Source of the DNA: a virus | Virus record (IMG/VR): IMGVR_UViG_3300032217_000255 | Coordinates: 1-37,960 of that record | Length of the DNA: 37,960 nt | Reading direction: 5' to 3' (one strand) | Shown: positions 1,678 through 37,960 of the stretch, piece by piece | How the letters are laid out: each line of letters starts with the position of its first letter | Numbering within the stretch: position 1 is the stretch's first letter | Notes under the pieces: generated by a model | Told to the model about the DNA's origin: nothing | The model's database searches: none | Seen by the model: the letters and a program-made list of their open reading frames with translations, nothing else | Translations under genes and position numbers: made by a program

Positions 1678-4260
1678 TTACTCCAATTCAATTCTTCTTA
1701 TTAAACGAACATTAACTTGAGATGTTCTGGGTACTAAGTATATAGACCCGTAATTAGACTTACTATAACTTTGACCAAACATAAAAGATTGTCCTTTAAA
1801 AATCTGAGAATCTATGTTATATGTTGTGGCAGATTGTCTCTCAAAATATGGTGTGGATGTTAAGTATGTACCACTACTCATTGATTTGAATGCTTCTGGA
1901 ATAAAGAAGCCATGATTTAATTTATAGTTAATGAATTCTAATTCATTCTTTGATGGCAAATACCATCCAGAAAGTCTAGAATCATTTCTTAATTTCTCCA
2001 TCGATTTACTTTGTATTCCATAATATGTTTGATTATCACCATAAGTATTCCACAAACCATCATACATTGATGCTGGTATTATTTCTGTTGGTTCAAATTC
2101 ATCATTAAGAATACCAAGATTATATTCATTTGGTGCAACTATAATTGCCCATCTCTTTTTGGTTGTACCATATCCAACAATATTTGGAATATATTCAACA
2201 GCAGAACCAGTAGTTGGATTACCATTAACCACAGATCCTTGTGTATTTAATGGAACACCGGGTTCAAAAATACCAACATATAATCCATCTTTATAATAAG
2301 TTAAATCAGAAGTTGGAAGAACATCTTCGGTTTGTATTGTTATTCTTGGTGCAAAATTATTGCCATTATCATTGCAATCTCCACCAAGTAGAGCATCACA
2401 GAATCCTTCAGGGCATCTACCACCTGATGTAAAATTACCGCCTAAAGCCACACATTCTGCTTGAGATATTACTACACAATTTGTTGTATCACCAGTACCA
2501 CAGGTGCAACAACTTCCAAGCATTTGACTATTACATACATCCATGTCTGGCTCAACTACTGCATAGCAAGCACCACCATAGCACGAAATATCAAGTATGT
2601 CTGTGTATGAAACCAATGGTTGCTTTTCAAATTCCGTATCAGCAAGACCAATTTTTATTATTCTATTGTTTTCATCAACAGCAAAACAAAAATCATTTTC
2701 TGGTCTTTGATTATCTGGAGCCGCACCATTTATACTAGAACAAGAAACCAGTCTATATTTTTTATTTAATGGATAATTCATCTCGTTGTTTAGAGATTTG
2801 CATGTCATTATTCCATCTGCATCAATTCCACAAAAAGTATTAGCACCAAGAGATGCTTTGACAAATTGTTTCTTTGGTAAAGATCTAATAGTATCTCTTA
2901 AATCTTTTAATTCATCTAAGTCATTAATAAATGGAGAATAGTATTCAAAACTGTTGTCTAGTTTTTGTCCAACGAATCCAAGAGTAGCAAAATTAACTTG
3001 AATATTATTTTCACCATTTCCATCGGATTTAGGATTAACATAAACATTATGTTGATAAAGTTTTTTAAGTTTAGTATTTACACTTAATGTTTTAAACTGA
3101 TTATTTTTAGCATCGTAAAATCTACCATAAATTTTTACTGAATTATCAAGAGCAATATAAGCACTAAATGTTTTTGTTGCTATTAAATCTAATACTCTAG
3201 GTAGTGGTGGAAATGATGGTGGAATTGGAGAATTTAATGGTGTTTGTGAAAACCTATTTTTAAATTTTTCAGTTGCAAAATATAATGGAACCGAATTACC
3301 ACTTATCAGTGCAAAATACCCATCAGTCCATCTGTCTGGTTCTGGTGTTCTATAGTCATGAGCGTATCCACCGGGACAAAATTTAATAACTGTAGTATTG
3401 TCATTTGTACTAGCGTACTCATCACCATTTTTTGTCCATTCTAGGCTTGGTGCTAAAATCAAACTATAATATTGAGGATTATCTTTAATTTTTATTTGAA
3501 ATACACCTTGATTTACGCCTTGTGCAAAACTTCCTGCAAAATTATTATCAAACCATTGTTTTTGTTGACAACGACTATAATCTGGCAACTCCCAACAAAA
3601 TACATTTGTTCCATTTTCGCATGAATTTAAAACAAAAGTATTTGTTTCTGATATTTTACATTCATCTGCTGCTGGATTTGCTGCTCCAACTTGTTCAAAA
3701 CACTTTCTTCCATTATTGTAAAAAGTAGAAGTATAGGGATATACTGCTTTTTCTGCACATTCTTTTTCACTACAAACATCTGTACAATTTGCATAAACAG
3801 TTCCGTCATCATTATATTCTGGATGACAACATGCTCTTTTCTGTCTATAATCTAATTGATTTGAGTTTTCTAGTGTACCAGAAATACATAATCTTTTTAT
3901 TTCTGCATTAGCGGCAGATTCAAGAGATGGAAGTGTACAGTCAGAATCAAGTGTCCAACGACCACTAACGGATTGACACTCACACAAAGTTGTTTTTTGC
4001 AAGAAACTAGTAGCAGGACTAAAAGAACAAGCACAGCAACAACCCACACTCGATGGAGTAATATTTAAATTTGCATCGCACTCACCAGCAGTAAAATATC
4101 CATTTTGTAAATTGCAGTCAGAAATTGTAAGATCTGATGTTTTTGTTACATTATTTCCTTCTGCCGAATACACATAACAACAACCAGTTATTGTATTGTT
4201 TGTAACATAATCGCTATAATCTACTACTGTTTGTGATCTTGTTCTAAATTGAATTGACAT
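1678..4260 (-). CDS. Large cysteine-rich adhesin-like protein with RCC1-like and DUF1566-like regions
   Basis: The 860-residue product begins with a cysteine-dense region (about 27-222) containing CC, CCCAC and CxC clusters. Residues about 355-570 contain RCC1-type beta-propeller-like repeats, for example FVKASLGANTFCGIDADG and ILDISCYGGACYAVV. A GxCC module follows at about 582-630 (LGSCCTCG through CNDNG). The C-terminal part has WAIIVAPNEY and GWYLPSKNELEFI, ending in VNVRLIRRI, which matches the DUF1566 (Lcl_C) type. Unlike its three upstream neighbours it has no collagen-like stem. Its location and the shared C-terminal type suggest a host-binding tail or fibre component. Product role is inference; the domain impressions come from motif reading only. 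Confidence 0.7.
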   Translation of the reverse strand: MSIQFRTRSQTVVDYSDYVTNNTITGCCYVYSAEGNNVTKTSDLTISDCNLQNGYFTAGECDANLNITPSSVGCCCACSFSPATSFLQKTTLCECQSVSGRWTLDSDCTLPSLESAANAEIKRLCISGTLENSNQLDYRQKRACCHPEYNDDGTVYANCTDVCSEKECAEKAVYPYTSTFYNNGRKCFEQVGAANPAADECKISETNTFVLNSCENGTNVFCWELPDYSRCQQKQWFDNNFAGSFAQGVNQGVFQIKIKDNPQYYSLILAPSLEWTKNGDEYASTNDNTTVIKFCPGGYAHDYRTPEPDRWTDGYFALISGNSVPLYFATEKFKNRFSQTPLNSPIPPSFPPLPRVLDLIATKTFSAYIALDNSVKIYGRFYDAKNNQFKTLSVNTKLKKLYQHNVYVNPKSDGNGENNIQVNFATLGFVGQKLDNSFEYYSPFINDLDELKDLRDTIRSLPKKQFVKASLGANTFCGIDADGIMTCKSLNNEMNYPLNKKYRLVSCSSINGAAPDNQRPENDFCFAVDENNRIIKIGLADTEFEKQPLVSYTDILDISCYGGACYAVVEPDMDVCNSQMLGSCCTCGTGDTTNCVVISQAECVALGGNFTSGGRCPEGFCDALLGGDCNDNGNNFAPRITIQTEDVLPTSDLTYYKDGLYVGIFEPGVPLNTQGSVVNGNPTTGSAVEYIPNIVGYGTTKKRWAIIVAPNEYNLGILNDEFEPTEIIPASMYDGLWNTYGDNQTYYGIQSKSMEKLRNDSRLSGWYLPSKNELEFINYKLNHGFFIPEAFKSMSSGTYLTSTPYFERQSATTYNIDSQIFKGQSFMFGQSYSKSNYGSIYLVPRTSQVNVRLIRRIELE

Positions 4261-4261
4261 A

Positions 4262-7200
4262 TTAGCAACTTTCGTATGAACTACAATCAGATGAACATAG
4301 TATATCTACACAAATGCCTTCTGCTAGTTTAACTGTTTTTTGTTGTAATTGTGTGGATTGTGTGATTGGAGCAAATGGAGATCCAGAAGATTGTGTAGAT
4401 GAAACTAGTCTACCAGTTTTTTCAATAGCTAATACCCCGGAATCCGGTGCCGTTGTGCATATCACTGGGCATACCGCTGGTGGTAGTTCACGACAACCAT
4501 AATCTCTGTGACAAAACGGACAAGTACCACAATTCAAACAACTATTTCCACATGCCTCTAGATATGTTATCCAATAGTCTGCTGCTAATGGAATAACAAT
4601 ATTATCACTATATCCCATTGTTTGCACAAATGTGCTACCACCCATAAGTTGGAATACACCAGTATCATGATAGAATACTGTGGCAGTTCTAAATGAATCA
4701 ATATTATATCTTAGGTTTCTACCAAAAATACCAAATTTAAATAAGTCAGTAGAAATATCACCACTGGCATAATCATAATCAAACTCATTCGGTTTTATTA
4801 AATATTTTTCTCCAATGTTTGCTAATGTTTCACCACCTCGGGGATAAATAGCAAGTTCATCTTGATTTCGTGGTGGATTAACTATTTTTTCTATTGGACC
4901 TAAAACAGGATAGTCATCTGTTGGTGCGGGCCCCCATTTAAAAGAATCTTCTGGTTCAATAGGGTCGAAACAACCTAAAGAACAACGACCTAACGGAAAT
5001 CCAAAATATCTAGCCCCAGAAATTGATGAAAATCTTAATCCAATTCGATATGGATCAAATTCAATGCGGGGAGAGTGACACTCCGCATTAATATCATCAT
5101 TTATATAACCGTGAATGTATTTTTGACTTGCGTTTACTCCAGCTCTCGGCGGCATTTGATCGATTAAACCATATGTTGCATTACCTAATGCAATTGCTGC
5201 ATTCTTATAAAAACCATTATTACTAGGATCAGTTGAAAATGGTGTTTCATCATCCAATATTGGTTTAAGCCAAGTTTTAAGATTTCCCGAAAAAGTTTGA
5301 GAAACAATATCTCTTATTTGTGATTGTGAAAGTAGTCTTAAATTGAAAGTTTCATCTGTCCAACTGTTGTAGTTTGAACAGGCAGCATTACCTTGTCGAT
5401 ACTGATCTGTCCTTCTTCCCCATAGTGGAGGAAATGGAGCTGGTATATCATTATATGGTTCAATCTTGTTAAATGTTGCATCATTGGGTTCATTATCAAA
5501 TTTAGTTCTAGGAATTTTTATTGGTTTTGTTTCATCGCACACTTTACAGTTTTGGAAATCTGCATAACCAAATCTATTAAGACATTCTTTTTTATTGTTT
5601 TCTGTATTTGTTGAAGAATATGCATAAGCACCAACAAAACGGCATTCATATTTTCCAGTAACAGCAAACCAATTATAGTTCAATTCTCGTGGGTATATGA
5701 ATAATGATCTCTGATCTACTGGTGATGGTTTACCGGTCCAGTCTTCGGTAAAATATGGATTACCATTAACCAAATCAAGTTTTAATTGATATGTACCAGA
5801 CTTAGTTGTTATTGTAGAATTATCTAAGATGCCTTCTTGTCCAATGGGTACACCGTTTAATGTCACATCTTCTAATAATTCCGCAAGGGCTGGGTCTACT
5901 AAAAATGCTGCTCTATATGGTGCTTCCATATTATGTTTAACATTTGCTAACCATTGTGGATCTGTATGTCCAGTTAGACCACCATTTCCATCAGAAATTG
6001 CTTTATTATCTTGTATTTCGGGAAAACACCAGAAACATACTGCGCTTTTTTGACAGTCTACTGGATCGCAGTTACATAAGTCAAATGACTCAGTTGGACA
6101 TTCTTGATCTGCGGGTTGATCAGGTATTTCCTGGCAACTACAATTAAAACAATTCTCATAACAAGTTTTAGTTTTACATGTCACATCAGGAACACATTCA
6201 CCATCCAACAAACCATTCTCTGCACATGTGCCACACACTTGTGAAGTAGTGCAAATAGTATTTTCACATTTATGACAAGTAGATCGGATACAATTCTGTG
6301 TACACGAACTGTTATCTGGGTATAATCCCACTTCTAGACATGTTTTACTTTGATCTATTTGTATAGAGGTACAATTACAACCATTAGTACCAGAATCACA
6401 ACGATAACAAATATTTGGTTGACAGTCACATTTGATATTATCGCATGTTGTATTCTTACCCATATACACACCACCAAGATCACTGCACTCGGCTGGTGTT
6501 TCTACTGCTGTACAAGTATATGTTTCATTTTGATTTTGAATGCAACATGCACCCGGTGCTTTGATAAGATTACAGCAGGATGCTGTTGAACAATCATCAG
6601 CAGTAACACTAGTACCTTCGAGATATCTACAATGTTCATATGTTAATTGACCTAAACATTCACCATTTTTGCAGCAAATACTCGATGGTTTACATTGATT
6701 AAAACATAAACCGGATTTTGTAGTTTCAGTTGATATATTTGTTGCGCTATCATCTGGCCAGACACCATATTCTCCACCACATGTCAATCCAGATATAAAA
6801 TAACCACCAACGGTTTGACAAAAATTTGGATCTATATCAGAAAGACATCTACCTTCAGAACAGCAGACACCATCGGGTTTAGTGGTATCGCCAACCGTGC
6901 ATGAATTTTTATTACATGGAACTAAACCTTCAAATGTTCCTTCTCGTTCGTCGCAATATGACTGAGTAACATAGTCTTCGCAATATTTTGTATTGTCAAC
7001 ATCAAAGTAACAGCATGAACCACGCACACCGGGGCTATTAACTTCTGTAACACCAAATGCACGAGCCGTAAAGTTTGCTCTCCATACAGAATCAGAACTA
7101 GTTCTCCACATATGAAGAATATTTGTTCCGGGATAGAATACTGGTCCACTTGCTTCATCAAATACAACATCTGTTGGAAAATTCCAAACATCATCGCCCT

Positions 7201-7996
7201 CTATAACCAAAGTAACAGACATAATCTGACCGTCTGGAATTGATTCATATGTAAATGCTTTTATTCCAATTGGTGTTGTTAATTGATAAACTGTTGCTCT
7301 AGAAACATCTAATGTGATACCATCAATACCTACATCATAAAAATCATCTAATGATATAATTTTTTCACCACGGTGGATTGGTCCAACAGAAGCAATAGAA
7401 TCTGTTATTTGAGCAACTACATTTCTTCCTGCGGTTTCTCCACCAAAATTTACATATCCATAGTTAGAACCACCAACACGATTTGCAGAAGTTGACACTT
7501 CTGGTATCAAATCTGTGGACATAATGTATGTTCTTTCTTTAACATACACAATCCTATTGTTTTCTGTAGAAGCAGAAATACCACCAGCAGTTGTATTTGC
7601 AGAGATGGTAAATCGTAGAGTTCCATCTTCCTCATAAGTTAAACCAAGCAAACCATTGGTTCTAAAGTTATAGAAATCTAAGGTTATACCACCACATACG
7701 CCCTTTAGTATTGGGTATCCGCCACCAATAGAATCAGCAGTTAATCCGGCATATATTCCGCTTGGTCCCTTTAAAGTTCCAGCAGAAGTTGAAGTTCCAT
7801 CAGATAATACTAATTTAACTTCACCAGTATTTTGATCAACAACTACTTGAGTTATGTAATTGGAATTTAATCCGGTAGCACCAGTTGGACCGCGAACTGT
7901 TTGTACTGGACCTGTACTTCCTGTTGGTCCTATTGGTCCAGCCGCACCCGCTCCAGTTGTTGGATATATTGAACTGTAACCGATATTATTTGACAT
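4262..7996 (-). CDS. Giant collagen-like, cysteine-rich fibre protein
   Basis: The 1244-residue product has a collagen-like stem at about 15-43 (PIGPTGSTGP, RGPTGATG), a beta-rich region to about 325, and a dense cysteine region at about 327-657. Cysteine modules follow a G-x-CC...C...C...GG/EG...C...C pattern, for example GSCCYFD and GACCIQN. A second cluster (CGNSCLNCGTCPFC) is near the C-terminus, which ends with several more cysteines. By hand I count about 70 cysteines. There is no DUF1566-type tail, unlike the two genes upstream. A fibre or host-recognition role is inferred from the collagen stem, size and place in the appendage block. The ribosome site is a weak GAGAG about 8 bases upstream. 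Confidence 0.7.
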   Translation of the reverse strand: MSNNIGYSSIYPTTGAGAAGPIGPTGSTGPVQTVRGPTGATGLNSNYITQVVVDQNTGEVKLVLSDGTSTSAGTLKGPSGIYAGLTADSIGGGYPILKGVCGGITLDFYNFRTNGLLGLTYEEDGTLRFTISANTTAGGISASTENNRIVYVKERTYIMSTDLIPEVSTSANRVGGSNYGYVNFGGETAGRNVVAQITDSIASVGPIHRGEKIISLDDFYDVGIDGITLDVSRATVYQLTTPIGIKAFTYESIPDGQIMSVTLVIEGDDVWNFPTDVVFDEASGPVFYPGTNILHMWRTSSDSVWRANFTARAFGVTEVNSPGVRGSCCYFDVDNTKYCEDYVTQSYCDEREGTFEGLVPCNKNSCTVGDTTKPDGVCCSEGRCLSDIDPNFCQTVGGYFISGLTCGGEYGVWPDDSATNISTETTKSGLCFNQCKPSSICCKNGECLGQLTYEHCRYLEGTSVTADDCSTASCCNLIKAPGACCIQNQNETYTCTAVETPAECSDLGGVYMGKNTTCDNIKCDCQPNICYRCDSGTNGCNCTSIQIDQSKTCLEVGLYPDNSSCTQNCIRSTCHKCENTICTTSQVCGTCAENGLLDGECVPDVTCKTKTCYENCFNCSCQEIPDQPADQECPTESFDLCNCDPVDCQKSAVCFWCFPEIQDNKAISDGNGGLTGHTDPQWLANVKHNMEAPYRAAFLVDPALAELLEDVTLNGVPIGQEGILDNSTITTKSGTYQLKLDLVNGNPYFTEDWTGKPSPVDQRSLFIYPRELNYNWFAVTGKYECRFVGAYAYSSTNTENNKKECLNRFGYADFQNCKVCDETKPIKIPRTKFDNEPNDATFNKIEPYNDIPAPFPPLWGRRTDQYRQGNAACSNYNSWTDETFNLRLLSQSQIRDIVSQTFSGNLKTWLKPILDDETPFSTDPSNNGFYKNAAIALGNATYGLIDQMPPRAGVNASQKYIHGYINDDINAECHSPRIEFDPYRIGLRFSSISGARYFGFPLGRCSLGCFDPIEPEDSFKWGPAPTDDYPVLGPIEKIVNPPRNQDELAIYPRGGETLANIGEKYLIKPNEFDYDYASGDISTDLFKFGIFGRNLRYNIDSFRTATVFYHDTGVFQLMGGSTFVQTMGYSDNIVIPLAADYWITYLEACGNSCLNCGTCPFCHRDYGCRELPPAVCPVICTTAPDSGVLAIEKTGRLVSSTQSSGSPFAPITQSTQLQQKTVKLAEGICVDILCSSDCSSYESC

Positions 7997-16085: not shown

Positions 16086-17954
16086 TTAATTTGATCCTCG
16101 GCCAGTTGCTGGCACTCCTTGCACATAGAAGTCACCAGCACTGAGTGTAAATTTAGAAGATAAAAGTATAGGAGATCCAGTAGTTAACCTAGTTGTTGTA
16201 TCGTACTTGTATAATTCTGTAATAATATTAATATTACACCCTGATGGTTGTTCTGGCATAACACTAATAAGTGAAACTGGAACAAAATAAACACTTTCTG
16301 GAATTGCACCATACCGCGCGTTCCATCCTAAAATAGAACTGTCCATTGTATATCCGTTTAAATCTGAAGTATCGTCAAAGACAGACCATTCAACAGATGA
16401 TTTAATATACTTTGATATATTAGTACCACTTAGAACTATATTATTAATAGTGAATGACTGTGGTCTAGTTCTGTAACCAATCGATGGGTATATAATTGGA
16501 AAAGAACCATTAATGTCTGCATTTCCATCTACAGTTCCACTGGTAACACCATAAACTGTGGTTACTGTTGTATTCAATAATGAAAATGGTACTTGGTTAT
16601 TAATATCTGGTTTTATTATTTCCGCTGTTGTTACTTCTGTTGTGTATGTTGGAATTCCTGGTGAAAGTGTTCCTTTAGTAATTGAATAACCATGTTTTCT
16701 TAGTTCTAAACGAAGATTTTTAAACATATTACTTTGAGGATTCCCCTCGTTGGCCGCCGATTGCATTCCAAAATTTATAAGTGTCGTTCCGGCTATAGAG
16801 TTATATTCTTTTTGTAGAGAAAATGTAAATAGTGGTGATATTTCTTCAAATGTACTATACTCATTAATTTCTGGTATGATTTTAATTTTAGTGATTTTAT
16901 AAACATCATCAAGCGTTCCGTTTGTTGAAAATATAAATCCAGAATTTATATTCTGACAAAATTGATAAGTTGCTTCTTGTCCATTGTTAGTTGATGAACC
17001 AAGAAATGATCCAGAAACAGTTGCAGGAATTCCACCAACTTTATCAAACATTGGTCTCAAACCATATTGTGTGAATGTATTACGAAAATCCAGTTCTAAA
17101 GCTTTTGTCCACTTAAAATTGTTCGAGGTATTGGAAGGAACCGACAAACCAATGTAATGTAGAGCGTGTAAATTACCTGTTGTTTTAAGTCTACTTACTA
17201 GTTGCGGACTCGTTAGGTTCCATAAAGAAGCACTAATACCATTAAGACTTGTTACTGCACCGGAAACACCAACAACCACATTATTTGATGATCCATTTGA
17301 AAGAGTCAATCCAATATAACCACGGTATGGAAGAATTAAGCCAGAATTGCCAGTAAGACCAAGAAGCATTGGCTTGGAAACATAATCTGTAACATCTGGT
17401 TCTAATGTAGTACCAGCACCAGACACACCACCACTTAAAAAGTAAACTACACCTTTTTGTAGTGTAGCACCAACGGTTCCTAGAAAATTAGAAATGATTG
17501 TTGAACCAGTTATTTTACCAGCAGTAGCAACCTGTGCATTTCCACCAGTAAAACCAACAACAACTCCAACTACTTCTGATGTGCATTCATCATTCGCTAA
17601 TGCTTTTTCTAGTTTACCAGTAGAATCTAGATAAACAATGTTTCCGACAGTCACACCAGTGTTTGCAGGAAGAACAACATTGATACCAGAAACATCTCCA
17701 CCAAAACTAGATGATAGAATACCATTTACAGTAACATTACCATTGAATGTTACATCTTTTGTTATAGTATTAGCAATATCTAGAGTATAACCTCCTTGTG
17801 TGGAAGTTTGTGGTCTAACAAGAATACCATCTCCTCCGGTTATTCCTCCAACTTTAAGAAGATTTAACCGAGTAATCATTTCATTCGTCTTGGCATACCA
17901 AGCACCGAATGTGTTTCCCAAATTTAATGAATCTATTTGTGTATAGTCAGACAT
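16086..17954 (-). CDS. Baseplate/fibre protein in the gp10 position
   Basis: The 622-residue product starts near NTFGAWYAKTNEMITRLNLL, the N-terminal attachment motif (N-T-F-x-x-W-x-x-K-T-N-E) shared by many T4-like phage fibres. It continues with short-fibre elements such as VTFNGNVTVNGIL and VGNIVYLDSTGKLEKALAND...EVVGVVVGF. Its length is close to T4 gp10 (602 residues) and it sits two genes after gp8, as gp10 does in T4, but sequence identity to gp10 was not tested. AGGA lies five bases before the ATG. It probably links fibres to the baseplate. Confidence 0.7.
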   Translation of the reverse strand: MSDYTQIDSLNLGNTFGAWYAKTNEMITRLNLLKVGGITGGDGILVRPQTSTQGGYTLDIANTITKDVTFNGNVTVNGILSSSFGGDVSGINVVLPANTGVTVGNIVYLDSTGKLEKALANDECTSEVVGVVVGFTGGNAQVATAGKITGSTIISNFLGTVGATLQKGVVYFLSGGVSGAGTTLEPDVTDYVSKPMLLGLTGNSGLILPYRGYIGLTLSNGSSNNVVVGVSGAVTSLNGISASLWNLTSPQLVSRLKTTGNLHALHYIGLSVPSNTSNNFKWTKALELDFRNTFTQYGLRPMFDKVGGIPATVSGSFLGSSTNNGQEATYQFCQNINSGFIFSTNGTLDDVYKITKIKIIPEINEYSTFEEISPLFTFSLQKEYNSIAGTTLINFGMQSAANEGNPQSNMFKNLRLELRKHGYSITKGTLSPGIPTYTTEVTTAEIIKPDINNQVPFSLLNTTVTTVYGVTSGTVDGNADINGSFPIIYPSIGYRTRPQSFTINNIVLSGTNISKYIKSSVEWSVFDDTSDLNGYTMDSSILGWNARYGAIPESVYFVPVSLISVMPEQPSGCNINIITELYKYDTTTRLTTGSPILLSSKFTLSAGDFYVQGVPATGRGSN

Positions 17955-34893: not shown

Positions 34894-35334
34894 ATGGCGT
34901 ATAAGAGTAAGTATAAACCAAAAAATCCACACAAATATGTTGGCAACCCAGACAACATAATATGTAGATCACTGTGGGAACGAACATTCTGTAAATATTT
35001 AGACGAAAATACAAATGTTATTCGTTGGTCTAGCGAAGAACTACAAATTCCATATATCTCTCCAATGGATAATAGACCACACATGTATTATCCCGACTTT
35101 CTGTTTGAAGTAAAGAAAGATTCTAGTGTTGAAACTTTAGTGGTTGAGATAAAACCAGAAAAACAAACAAAAGAACCAGTGCGTGGAAGCAAAAGTAGCA
35201 AGACTTTCTTGACAGAAAGCCTACAATACCAGATAAATAAATCTAAGTGGGATTCTGCCAAACAATTCTGTTCGAAACAGGGGTGGAAGTTTGTTGTTTT
35301 GACGGAAAACAACCTATTTAAAGGAAACGCTTAA
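34894..35334 (+). CDS. 4: Head-completion nuclease-like protein gp4
   Basis: The 146-residue product has YVGNPDNIICRSLWERTFCKYLD, VIRWSSEELQIPY, MYYPDFLFEV and VVEIKPEK. These are the hallmark segments of gp4 (also called gp50/65) head-completion proteins of T4-like phages; T4 gp4 is 150 residues. Glu29, Asp68 in PDF and Glu85-x-Lys87 form a PD-(D/E)xK-type nuclease pattern. gp4 stabilises filled heads before tail joining. It opens the plus-strand block, and its stop overlaps the next start as TAATG. The ribosome site is weak (AAAGG, 13 bases upstream). Confidence 0.9.
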   Translation: MAYKSKYKPKNPHKYVGNPDNIICRSLWERTFCKYLDENTNVIRWSSEELQIPYISPMDNRPHMYYPDFLFEVKKDSSVETLVVEIKPEKQTKEPVRGSKSSKTFLTESLQYQINKSKWDSAKQFCSKQGWKFVVLTENNLFKGNA

Positions 35335-35928: not shown

Positions 35929-36666
35929 ATGCTTAAAGAATTATTGATTGAAAAAACACCAAAATATACTGAAATTTTACCATGCAGTCAAAAAAGGGTC
36001 ACTTATCGACCATTTGTTGTGCGCGAAGAAAAGAATTTGATGATTGCGCGGGAAACTTCATCATTTGAAAACCTAATGACAACAGTTCAAGAGGTAATAA
36101 ACTCTTGTACTACTGGAATGCCAGAAAATGATTGTAAAAATTTACCATTTTGTGATTTAGAATATCTTTTCTTAAAGATAAGAGAAAAATCACTCGGAGA
36201 AGTGGTAGATTGTATTATTACATGTCCAATTACTGGCGAAAGAGTTCCGACAAAGTTAGATTTACAAAAAGTAAAGTTGTCAAACAAGAAAATAAACAAC
36301 AAAGTAAAACTTGATAACTCTATTTCTGTAATAATGCAACAACCAACGCTCGATACTTACTTAAAACTTAATAAATTTGAAATTAAAGAAGAAGAAGATG
36401 GTGTCATTGAACTTTTGGCGCTCTGCATAAAGGAAATTGAAGCCGGAGAAGAAAACTATTATGCAAAAGATGTACCAGAACAAGAAATTACACAATTTGT
36501 CGAGTCGTTGACATCAAAGCAGTTCAAAGGTTTGTTGAGTTTCTTAAAAGAAATACCAACAATTGAACATAATATAGAATACATTACTAGTGATGGGATA
36601 AAAAGAAGCATAACCCTAAGAGGATTTGCTGATTTTTTAGAATTATTTTTGGTTATGCAGATTTAG
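35929..36666 (+). CDS. 26: gp26-type baseplate hub/tail assembly protein
   Basis: The 245-residue product starts with PKYTEILPCSQKRVTYRPFVVREEKNLMIARE, of which YRPF-x-V-x-EEKNLMIA is the signature of the T4-type baseplate (gp26, PF12322-like) family. Later come LPFCDLEYLFLKIR and CPITGERVPTKLDLQKV. T4 gp26 is 208 residues and acts in hub assembly. GAGGAA precedes the ATG. Nine codons before the stop lies a TTTTTTA heptamer in the 0-frame register T_TTT_TTA, so a fraction of ribosomes could shift to the -1 frame and make a 295-residue product: 237 residues of this protein plus 58 from the next frame. Confidence 0.82.
   Translation: MLKELLIEKTPKYTEILPCSQKRVTYRPFVVREEKNLMIARETSSFENLMTTVQEVINSCTTGMPENDCKNLPFCDLEYLFLKIREKSLGEVVDCIITCPITGERVPTKLDLQKVKLSNKKINNKVKLDNSISVIMQQPTLDTYLKLNKFEIKEEEDGVIELLALCIKEIEAGEENYYAKDVPEQEITQFVESLTSKQFKGLLSFLKEIPTIEHNIEYITSDGIKRSITLRGFADFLELFLVMQI
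36618..36639 (+). other. Predicted -1 ribosomal frameshift site
   Basis: The slippery heptamer T_TTT_TTA occupies 36633-36639 and is in phase with gp26: codons TTT (36634-36636) and TTA (36637-36639). Shifting back one base enters the frame open to 36815. AAGAGGA (36618-36624) lies eight bases upstream, like the Shine-Dalgarno stimulator of the E. coli dnaX frameshift. The heptamer is the one used by HIV-1 gag-pol. No strong downstream stem-loop was found by eye. Confidence 0.65.
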
Positions 36667-36815
36667 GAGCATTATTAAAGATAAATTTTCAAATTTTCTT
36701 CGAACATAAAGTACCAATAGATCAAATAGAAAGAATGATACCGTGGGAAAGGAATCTTTTCGTTGATATGATGAGAAAACACATAGAAGATCTAAATGAA
36801 AAATTAGGTAATTAA
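36633..36815 (+). CDS. Downstream frame of gp26, gp51 position, likely made by frameshift
   Basis: The frame 36633-36815 (-1 relative to gp26) has no ATG before Met-coding residues in its middle. It reads RIIFGYADLGALLKINFQIF, then HKVPIDQIERMIPWERNLFV and ends KHIEDLNEKLGN. The E-x-MIPWER-x-L-F block resembles small hub-assembly or chaperone segments (E-x-M-x-PFER) after gp26 in T4-like phages. Entry could be by the -1 slip at 36633-36639, giving a C-terminal extension of 58 residues. The alternative, start at an ATT codon, is less likely because the nearest ribosome-like site is about 17 bases away. T4 gp51 is longer (249 residues), so true equivalence is doubtful. Confidence 0.65.
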   Translation, partial: FFRIIFGYADLGALLKINFQIFFEHKVPIDQIERMIPWERNLFVDMMRKHIEDLNEKLGN

Positions 36816-36823
36816 CAAAAACT

Positions 36824-37960
36824 ATGAAAACAACTCATCAAAAACAAATAAAAACCTTTCTGAAGAAAGAATCTGACAAAATTTATCTTCCATTTTTGAA
36901 AACATTTTCAAAAAATGGGAAAGTTGCTCAAGTTTTTCAAAAAATGATGGACATTTTGCCAACTTTAAAGAAGGCAAAAGAAAAAATTGAAAAACCAGAG
37001 AATAATTTACTCAGTCCTATTACAGTAAATACTAAACCAAAAGTTATGACTCCAATGACTATGAAAAGTAGTCAGACTGTTGTTAATTTGCCACAAGTTG
37101 ACAAAGAAAAACTTGTTTCAATGGTAAAAAACAAACAGATACTTAATAAACTGGAATCTCCTGCCAAAAATCAATATGTTTTAACTCTTCCAGCATATGA
37201 AGATGGAAAGAATGTAGATGCATGGAAAGAAAATATAATATCGGAAAAACATGCTAAAGGATTAGAACAAGAGTCTGGAAATAATGCTATAGAAGATACT
37301 GGTAGAAATTTAGAAATACCAAAAGCAGATGCTTTAGTTGCTGCTTCAAAAGGAAACAATACAAGTACATCAAATTCGCCTGTAGCAGACAGACCAACTT
37401 CAAAATTATCTCCTGTTACAACTCCTGTGAGTGAAATTAAAGCAAAACTAGAACCAACAGCAAACACTGCTGGTGGTTCTGAAGGTGCAAAAATAACAGT
37501 AATAGGAGATAAAGATAAAAAAGAAGCATCTTTAGTGGGAGAAAAAGGCGTAGAAGCAATAGGAAAGACTGAAGTACTTCCTAAGAAAGAAATAGATGAT
37601 GTTACATCTGCTGCCGCTAATACACAAGCAAATGCAGCAGAACCAGAAGAGGCAGGATCTGGTGCAAAACGCGGTGGAGAGGTGCTAAAAGATATCGCCA
37701 CTACTGCTATGTCTTTTATACCTGGTCTTGGAGCCGCTGCTGGTGCAATGAAAGGTCTTAAGGGACTAGGTGCTGTTGGAAAAATGGCAAATATGGCAAA
37801 AGGAATGGGTGGTAAATCACCATTATCAGCAATGTCTTCGGGTGGTGGAGGTGGTATGGGTGGAATGTTAGGAGCAGCAGGAGGTGGTGGAGGTGGTATG
37901 GGTGGAATGCTAGGAGCAGCAGGATGTGGTGGAGGTGGTATGGGTGGAATGCTAGGAGCA
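36824..37960 (+). CDS. Tape-measure-like or internal tail protein, N-terminal part
   Basis: The frame begins ATG at 36824 and stays open for 379 codons to the window end. The N-terminus is Lys-rich and helical (KQIKTFLKKESDK), followed by a Pro/Thr/Glu/Ala-rich low-complexity linker. At about residues 290-330 there is a hydrophobic Gly/Ala stretch (TAMSFIPGLGAAAGAMKGL), which could enter a membrane. From about residue 340 it is built of GGGGGMGGMLGAAG units. Being next after the gp26 pair, it is in the tape-measure (gp29) place, but no gp29 sequence feature was recognised. The ribosome site is not clear. Other options are a hub protein or an internal virion protein. Confidence 0.6.
   Translation, partial: MKTTHQKQIKTFLKKESDKIYLPFLKTFSKNGKVAQVFQKMMDILPTLKKAKEKIEKPENNLLSPITVNTKPKVMTPMTMKSSQTVVNLPQVDKEKLVSMVKNKQILNKLESPAKNQYVLTLPAYEDGKNVDAWKENIISEKHAKGLEQESGNNAIEDTGRNLEIPKADALVAASKGNNTSTSNSPVADRPTSKLSPVTTPVSEIKAKLEPTANTAGGSEGAKITVIGDKDKKEASLVGEKGVEAIGKTEVLPKKEIDDVTSAAANTQANAAEPEEAGSGAKRGGEVLKDIATTAMSFIPGLGAAAGAMKGLKGLGAVGKMANMAKGMGGKSPLSAMSSGGGGGMGGMLGAAGGGGGGMGGMLGAAGCGGGGMGGMLGA
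37841..37960 (+). repeat. 42-base tandem repeat coding GGGGGMGGMLGAAG
   Basis: Three units of 42 bases begin at 37841, 37883 and 37925; the third is cut by the window end after 36 bases. Units differ by very few bases (TTA/CTA Leu codon; GGT to TGT in unit 3, which makes one Gly into Cys). The repeats are in frame and encode a Gly/Met-rich 14-residue motif. The high identity implies recent duplication and probably length variation. Confidence 0.92.

Follow-up and report, generated by a model that had tools for sequence, protein, structure and literature searches.

Sequence evidence that gp26 and gp51 of a T4-type phage probably form one gene with a programmed −1 frameshift

Introduction

Are gp26 and gp51 of T4-type phages two separate genes, or a single gene read in two frames? 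The question arises at the end of gp26 in the viral record IMGVR_UViG_3300032217_000255, analysed over positions 1 to 37,960 (37,960 nucleotides, hereafter the window), where a gp51-type domain lies in the −1 frame. Tail-assembly chaperones of phage lambda (G/GT) and of other long-tailed phages are made by −1 frameshifting, as Xu, Hendrix and Duda are said to have shown in 2004. A 2016 review (PMC5009743) describes such G-T frameshifting in long-tailed phages "except T4", and Sullivan et al. 2010 (PMC3037559) noted that gp51 of cyanophages and vibriophages is short of about 200 N-terminal residues. Our reading of the sequence is that the gp26/gp51 locus is very probably one tail-assembly-chaperone gene, with two products arising by programmed −1 frameshifting at T_TTT_TTA.

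Results

The gp26 open reading frame (ORF; 35929–36666, plus strand) encodes a protein of 245 residues that matches the Pfam profile PF12322 T4_baseplate (E=1.6e-49, 169 bits against a cutoff of 24.5) and PHROG_150 (E=9.5e-51), and it is modelled by AlphaFold with a predicted local distance difference test score (pLDDT) of 92. Near its end the frame reads GCT GAT TTT TTA GAA, which places the heptamer TTTTTTA (36633–36639) in the exact X_XXY_YYZ register of a slippery site, and eight sense codons separate the TTA from the stop TAG (36664–36666) that terminates the putative short isoform. A TGA at 36630–36632 limits the −1 frame on its upstream side, so that its opening coincides with the heptamer, and it stays open from 36633 to 36815. 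Its earliest ATG, GTG or TTG is the ATG at 36735, 32 codons in and without a Shine-Dalgarno (SD) match. From the slip codon AGA to the TAA at 36816–36818, this frame (36639–36818, plus strand) encodes 58 residues, RIIFGYADLGALLKINFQIFFEHKVPIDQIERMIPWERNLFVDMMRKHIEDLNEKLGN, which match PHROG_634 ("baseplate hub assembly catalyst", i.e. gp51; E=2.1e-11) and are predicted to be helical (pLDDT 85). In tblastn comparisons, the same frame matched gp51 as annotated in P-SSM2 and in cyanophages, and the alignment lay right where gp26 and gp51 join. The predicted long product thus has 237 + 58 = 295 residues and the short one 245, giving the sequence architecture of the G/GT type: short and long isoforms, a common N domain and overlapping frames. 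Eight nucleotides upstream of the heptamer lies the SD-like tract AAGAGGA (36618–36624, plus strand). A preliminary description, made from the letters alone, had pointed to the heptamer and its register, the −1 frame without a normal start, the AAGAGGA tract and the two product sizes; all of these were recovered.

An arrangement of this kind would rarely arise by chance. The main genes of the window contain 19 in-register T6N or A6N heptamers, and a long −1 frame (58 codons) follows only the one in gp26, the next best being 27 codons. The final 15 codons of a gene would be expected to hold about 0.02 in-register TTTTTTN heptamers, and a −1 frame of at least 59 codons is found at 0.5% of in-gene positions. 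In the window lineage, variable sites of the −1 frame past the gp26 stop fall on codon positions 1, 2 and 3 in the numbers 11, 1 and 27, a pattern indicating that this frame is under protein-coding constraint beyond the stop.

The preliminary description had held that relatives with an ATG-started downstream gene and no heptamer would speak against the frameshift; the comparison was made, and its outcome favours the frameshift. We collected gp26 loci from viral contigs and phage records; the 244 usable loci formed 82 clusters at 75% amino-acid identity, and in the cluster statistics kinship was handled by this clustering alone. One weakly matching locus proved not to be gp26 and was left out. 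In 81 of the 82 clusters, an in-register T_TTT_TTN stands 0–8 codons ahead of the gp26 stop, with a gp51-type domain open in the −1 frame; the heptamer is TTTTTTC in 60 clusters, TTTTTTA in 11, TTTTTTT in 8 and TTTTTTG in 2. The sole cluster that lacks it is T4. After this survey, seven further phage records were examined: the heptamer and the −1 gp51 domain are present in six (Aeromonas phiAS5, P19, Vibrio nt-1, Ochrobactrum OC, Synechococcus Sf-FR1 and Nitratidesulfovibrio phage SRB7757), and the seventh, Serratia phage Muldoon, has the two-gene layout of T4 with an unshifted fusion. The slip-site codon is TTT in 81/81 clusters (562 TTT to 302 TTC elsewhere in the same genes), and the codon ahead of it ends in T, again in 81/81; given each gene's own codon use and ignoring phylogeny, the log10 P values are about −18 and −22, respectively. 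An HTVC008M-like contig appeared as an exception, with a premature in-frame stop within gp26; we handled it as a variant or sequence error, and it is probably the latter. No relatives were found by a search of bacterial genomes.

The T4 proteins provide an unshifted counterpart. A profile of the shifted product aligns to T4 gp26 as far as the junction, which is the end of T4 gp26, and its alignment to T4 gp51 crosses the junction and continues through the C domain. On its own, the profile of the C domain matches T4 gp51 and not T4 gp26, and the PHROG profiles agree. T4 therefore has an N-only gene (gp26) and an N+C gene (gp51), on opposite strands, and among the indirect lines of evidence, none argues more strongly than this pair that it is the fused product which functions. 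Together with the heptamers of the related loci, this equivalent supports the programmed −1 frameshift that the preliminary description had proposed.

Sequence conservation extends upstream of the slip site. An SD-like match of at least 4 bases precedes the heptamer in 73 of 81 clusters, mostly 7–10 nt away. In the common upstream Glu-Gly pair, Glu is encoded by GAG in 38 cases versus 16 for GAA, whereas elsewhere the counts are 361 versus 887 (odds ratio 5.8, p=1e-9, uncorrected for phylogeny). The element is a likely candidate for a stimulator of the dnaX type. Downstream, the 55 nt 3' of the heptamer fold slightly better than shuffled sequences (mean z −1.25, against −0.28 in a control region), a signal owed to a subgroup of cyanophages whose hairpin is strong (z down to −5.5). 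In this one subgroup (L069, L087, L097, L099, L121, L145 and L152), a strong stem-loop of the GTATGGCTCAT...TTGAGTCATAC type stands 3' of the slip site and may act there as a second stimulator.

Could gp51 instead be a separate short gene, as annotated in databases, translated by reinitiation or coupling after the gp26 stop through TAATG/TGATG-type overlaps or non-canonical starts? Some relatives do have an ATG overlapping or just past the stop (Vibrio, Rhizobium, Stenotrophomonas and many cyanophages). However, 44 of 81 clusters have no ATG within 8 codons of the slip point, and the heptamer is maintained regardless of whether an ATG is present. In the window lineage, the −1 frame offers no ATG, GTG or TTG before codon 33 and none with an SD, and the fused T4 equivalent contains the N domain as well. 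We therefore consider a separate gp51 gene improbable. Slippage of RNA polymerase on the T6 run, which would yield mixed-length mRNAs encoding the long protein, appears still less probable: the homopolymer exists, and reaches T7–T8 in some relatives, but the run in the window is just six T, and transcript slippage needs neither the T_TTT_TTN register fixed in all heptamer-bearing clusters nor an SD-like element at dnaX-like spacing. Finally, an indel or assembly error that split a gp26–gp51 fusion gene and left an incidental heptamer, conceivable given that T4-type phages have a fused gene and that homopolymers are error-prone, is refuted for practical purposes by the same −1 arrangement in independent isolates and contigs from 81 clusters.

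Beyond the frame structure, the predicted fold of gp26 matches other phage baseplate hub/gp26 proteins. No significant match to solved structures was obtained for it, and none to BFVD for the C domain; a PDB sequence search returned nothing meaningful, and NCBIfam holds no model for the gp26 or gp51 part. The ORF that follows (36824–37960, plus strand, cut by the window end) occupies the position of a tape-measure gene, an assignment by position only, and in Pelagibacter phage HTVC008M the second gene after the −1 ORF, with one small gene between, matches tape-measure PHROGs (E=4.8e-14). Elsewhere in the window, we observed glycine-rich repeats (GGGGMGGMLGAA) near its end (37847–37960, inside the gene at the tape-measure position), a protein with a TnsA-like endonuclease fold that matches the head closure protein gp4 (34894–35334; PF08722, PHROG_218), and two large ORFs among the baseplate genes (1678–7996 and 16086–17954, minus strand) that have no PHROG match.

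Discussion

Our results favor a single gene with a programmed frameshift, and four observations weigh against it. An ATG lies within 8 codons past the slip point in 37 of 81 clusters, where reinitiation could contribute. A conserved downstream hairpin was sought in the window lineage and not found; the candidate stimulator named in the preliminary description, the upstream SD-like element, is widely conserved in sequence. The downstream gene of the window lineage gave no match to tape-measure families in relatives. The comparison of the predicted gp26 fold with the HK97 chaperone 2ob9_A was not significant (E=3.4, prob 0.14).

From the register of the heptamer, its conservation and the homology to the T4 pair, we infer slippage, its efficiency and the chaperone function as follows. 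The majority of ribosomes would terminate at the TAG at 36664 and release the 245-residue protein, while a minority would slip by −1 at T_TTT_TTA and continue to 36815, producing the 295-residue protein with its added helical C domain. Slippage may be aided by pairing of the SD-like tract, 8 nt upstream, with 16S rRNA. Position and architecture suggest a G/GT-like tail-assembly chaperone, as in lambda. If the two products act as gpG and gpGT do, the tape-measure protein would be covered by many copies of the short form and few of the long one, and the C domain would bring in the subunits of the tail tube.

It is likely that SD-stimulated frameshifting at T_TTT_TTN was the ancestral route to the long tail chaperone in the whole T4-type superfamily (cyanophages and phages of Pelagibacter, Rhizobium, Stenotrophomonas, Vibrio and Aeromonas), and that the T4 lineage swapped it for a duplicated, fused gene. 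If so, the short "gp51" genes in databases are not genes, and apparent losses of gp51 are annotation artefacts. A joined coding sequence is annotated in none of the 18 annotated slip-bearing records. The −1-frame gp51 domain is unannotated in P19 and annotated as a short hypothetical protein in phiAS5, because it sits in the −1 frame; the absence of gp51 reported for Aeromonas phage Aeh1 may likewise be an artefact of this kind. Frameshifting from gp26, if it occurs, would also explain the N-terminal residues that Sullivan et al. (PMC3037559) found to be absent. Under the proposed frameshift, hundreds of genomes from cyanophages and other T4-type phages would carry gp26 and gp51 as one recoded chaperone gene.

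The preliminary description knew of no published account of frameshifting in T4-type gp26 genes; this has to be corrected, as the phenomenon belongs to a known class and was at least partly published in 2022. According to PMC12846349 and PMC10885494, the chaperone genes of T4-like phages were assigned by Vladimirov, Gautam and Davidson (2022). Where they cite that work, these papers mention polyT slip sites in T4-like phages, and PMC10885494 refers to short and fused long chaperone genes in some of them. New here is that, among the T4-type phages sampled, the heptamer and the SD-like element are conserved almost universally and over a wide range.

Four known systems can be set beside this locus. 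It resembles lambda G/GT in having a tape-measure gene nearby, in at least one relative (HTVC008M), but here an SD-like tract accompanies a T_TTT_TTN slip site, and no sequence relation to lambda G is detectable for the PF12322/PHROG_150 proteins. The chaperone locus of Vandenendeviridae and Andersonviridae (PMC12846349) shares a conserved −1 frame, a T-rich slip site and a place among myovirus chaperones, yet belongs to other families and uses another motif (GTTTTT). With dnaX-type frameshifting it has in common an SD-like element about 8–10 nt upstream of the slip site, whereas the heptamer here is U-rich rather than A-rich, and no stem is conserved 3' of it in the window lineage. In T4 itself, the homologous N domain (gp26) and the N+C long form (gp51) are encoded by two separate, divergently transcribed genes without frameshifting, whereas the window phage has one gene and a slip site. 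The two naturally occurring layouts allow frameshifting to be compared with gene duplication as a means of fixing the proportion of two tail chaperones.
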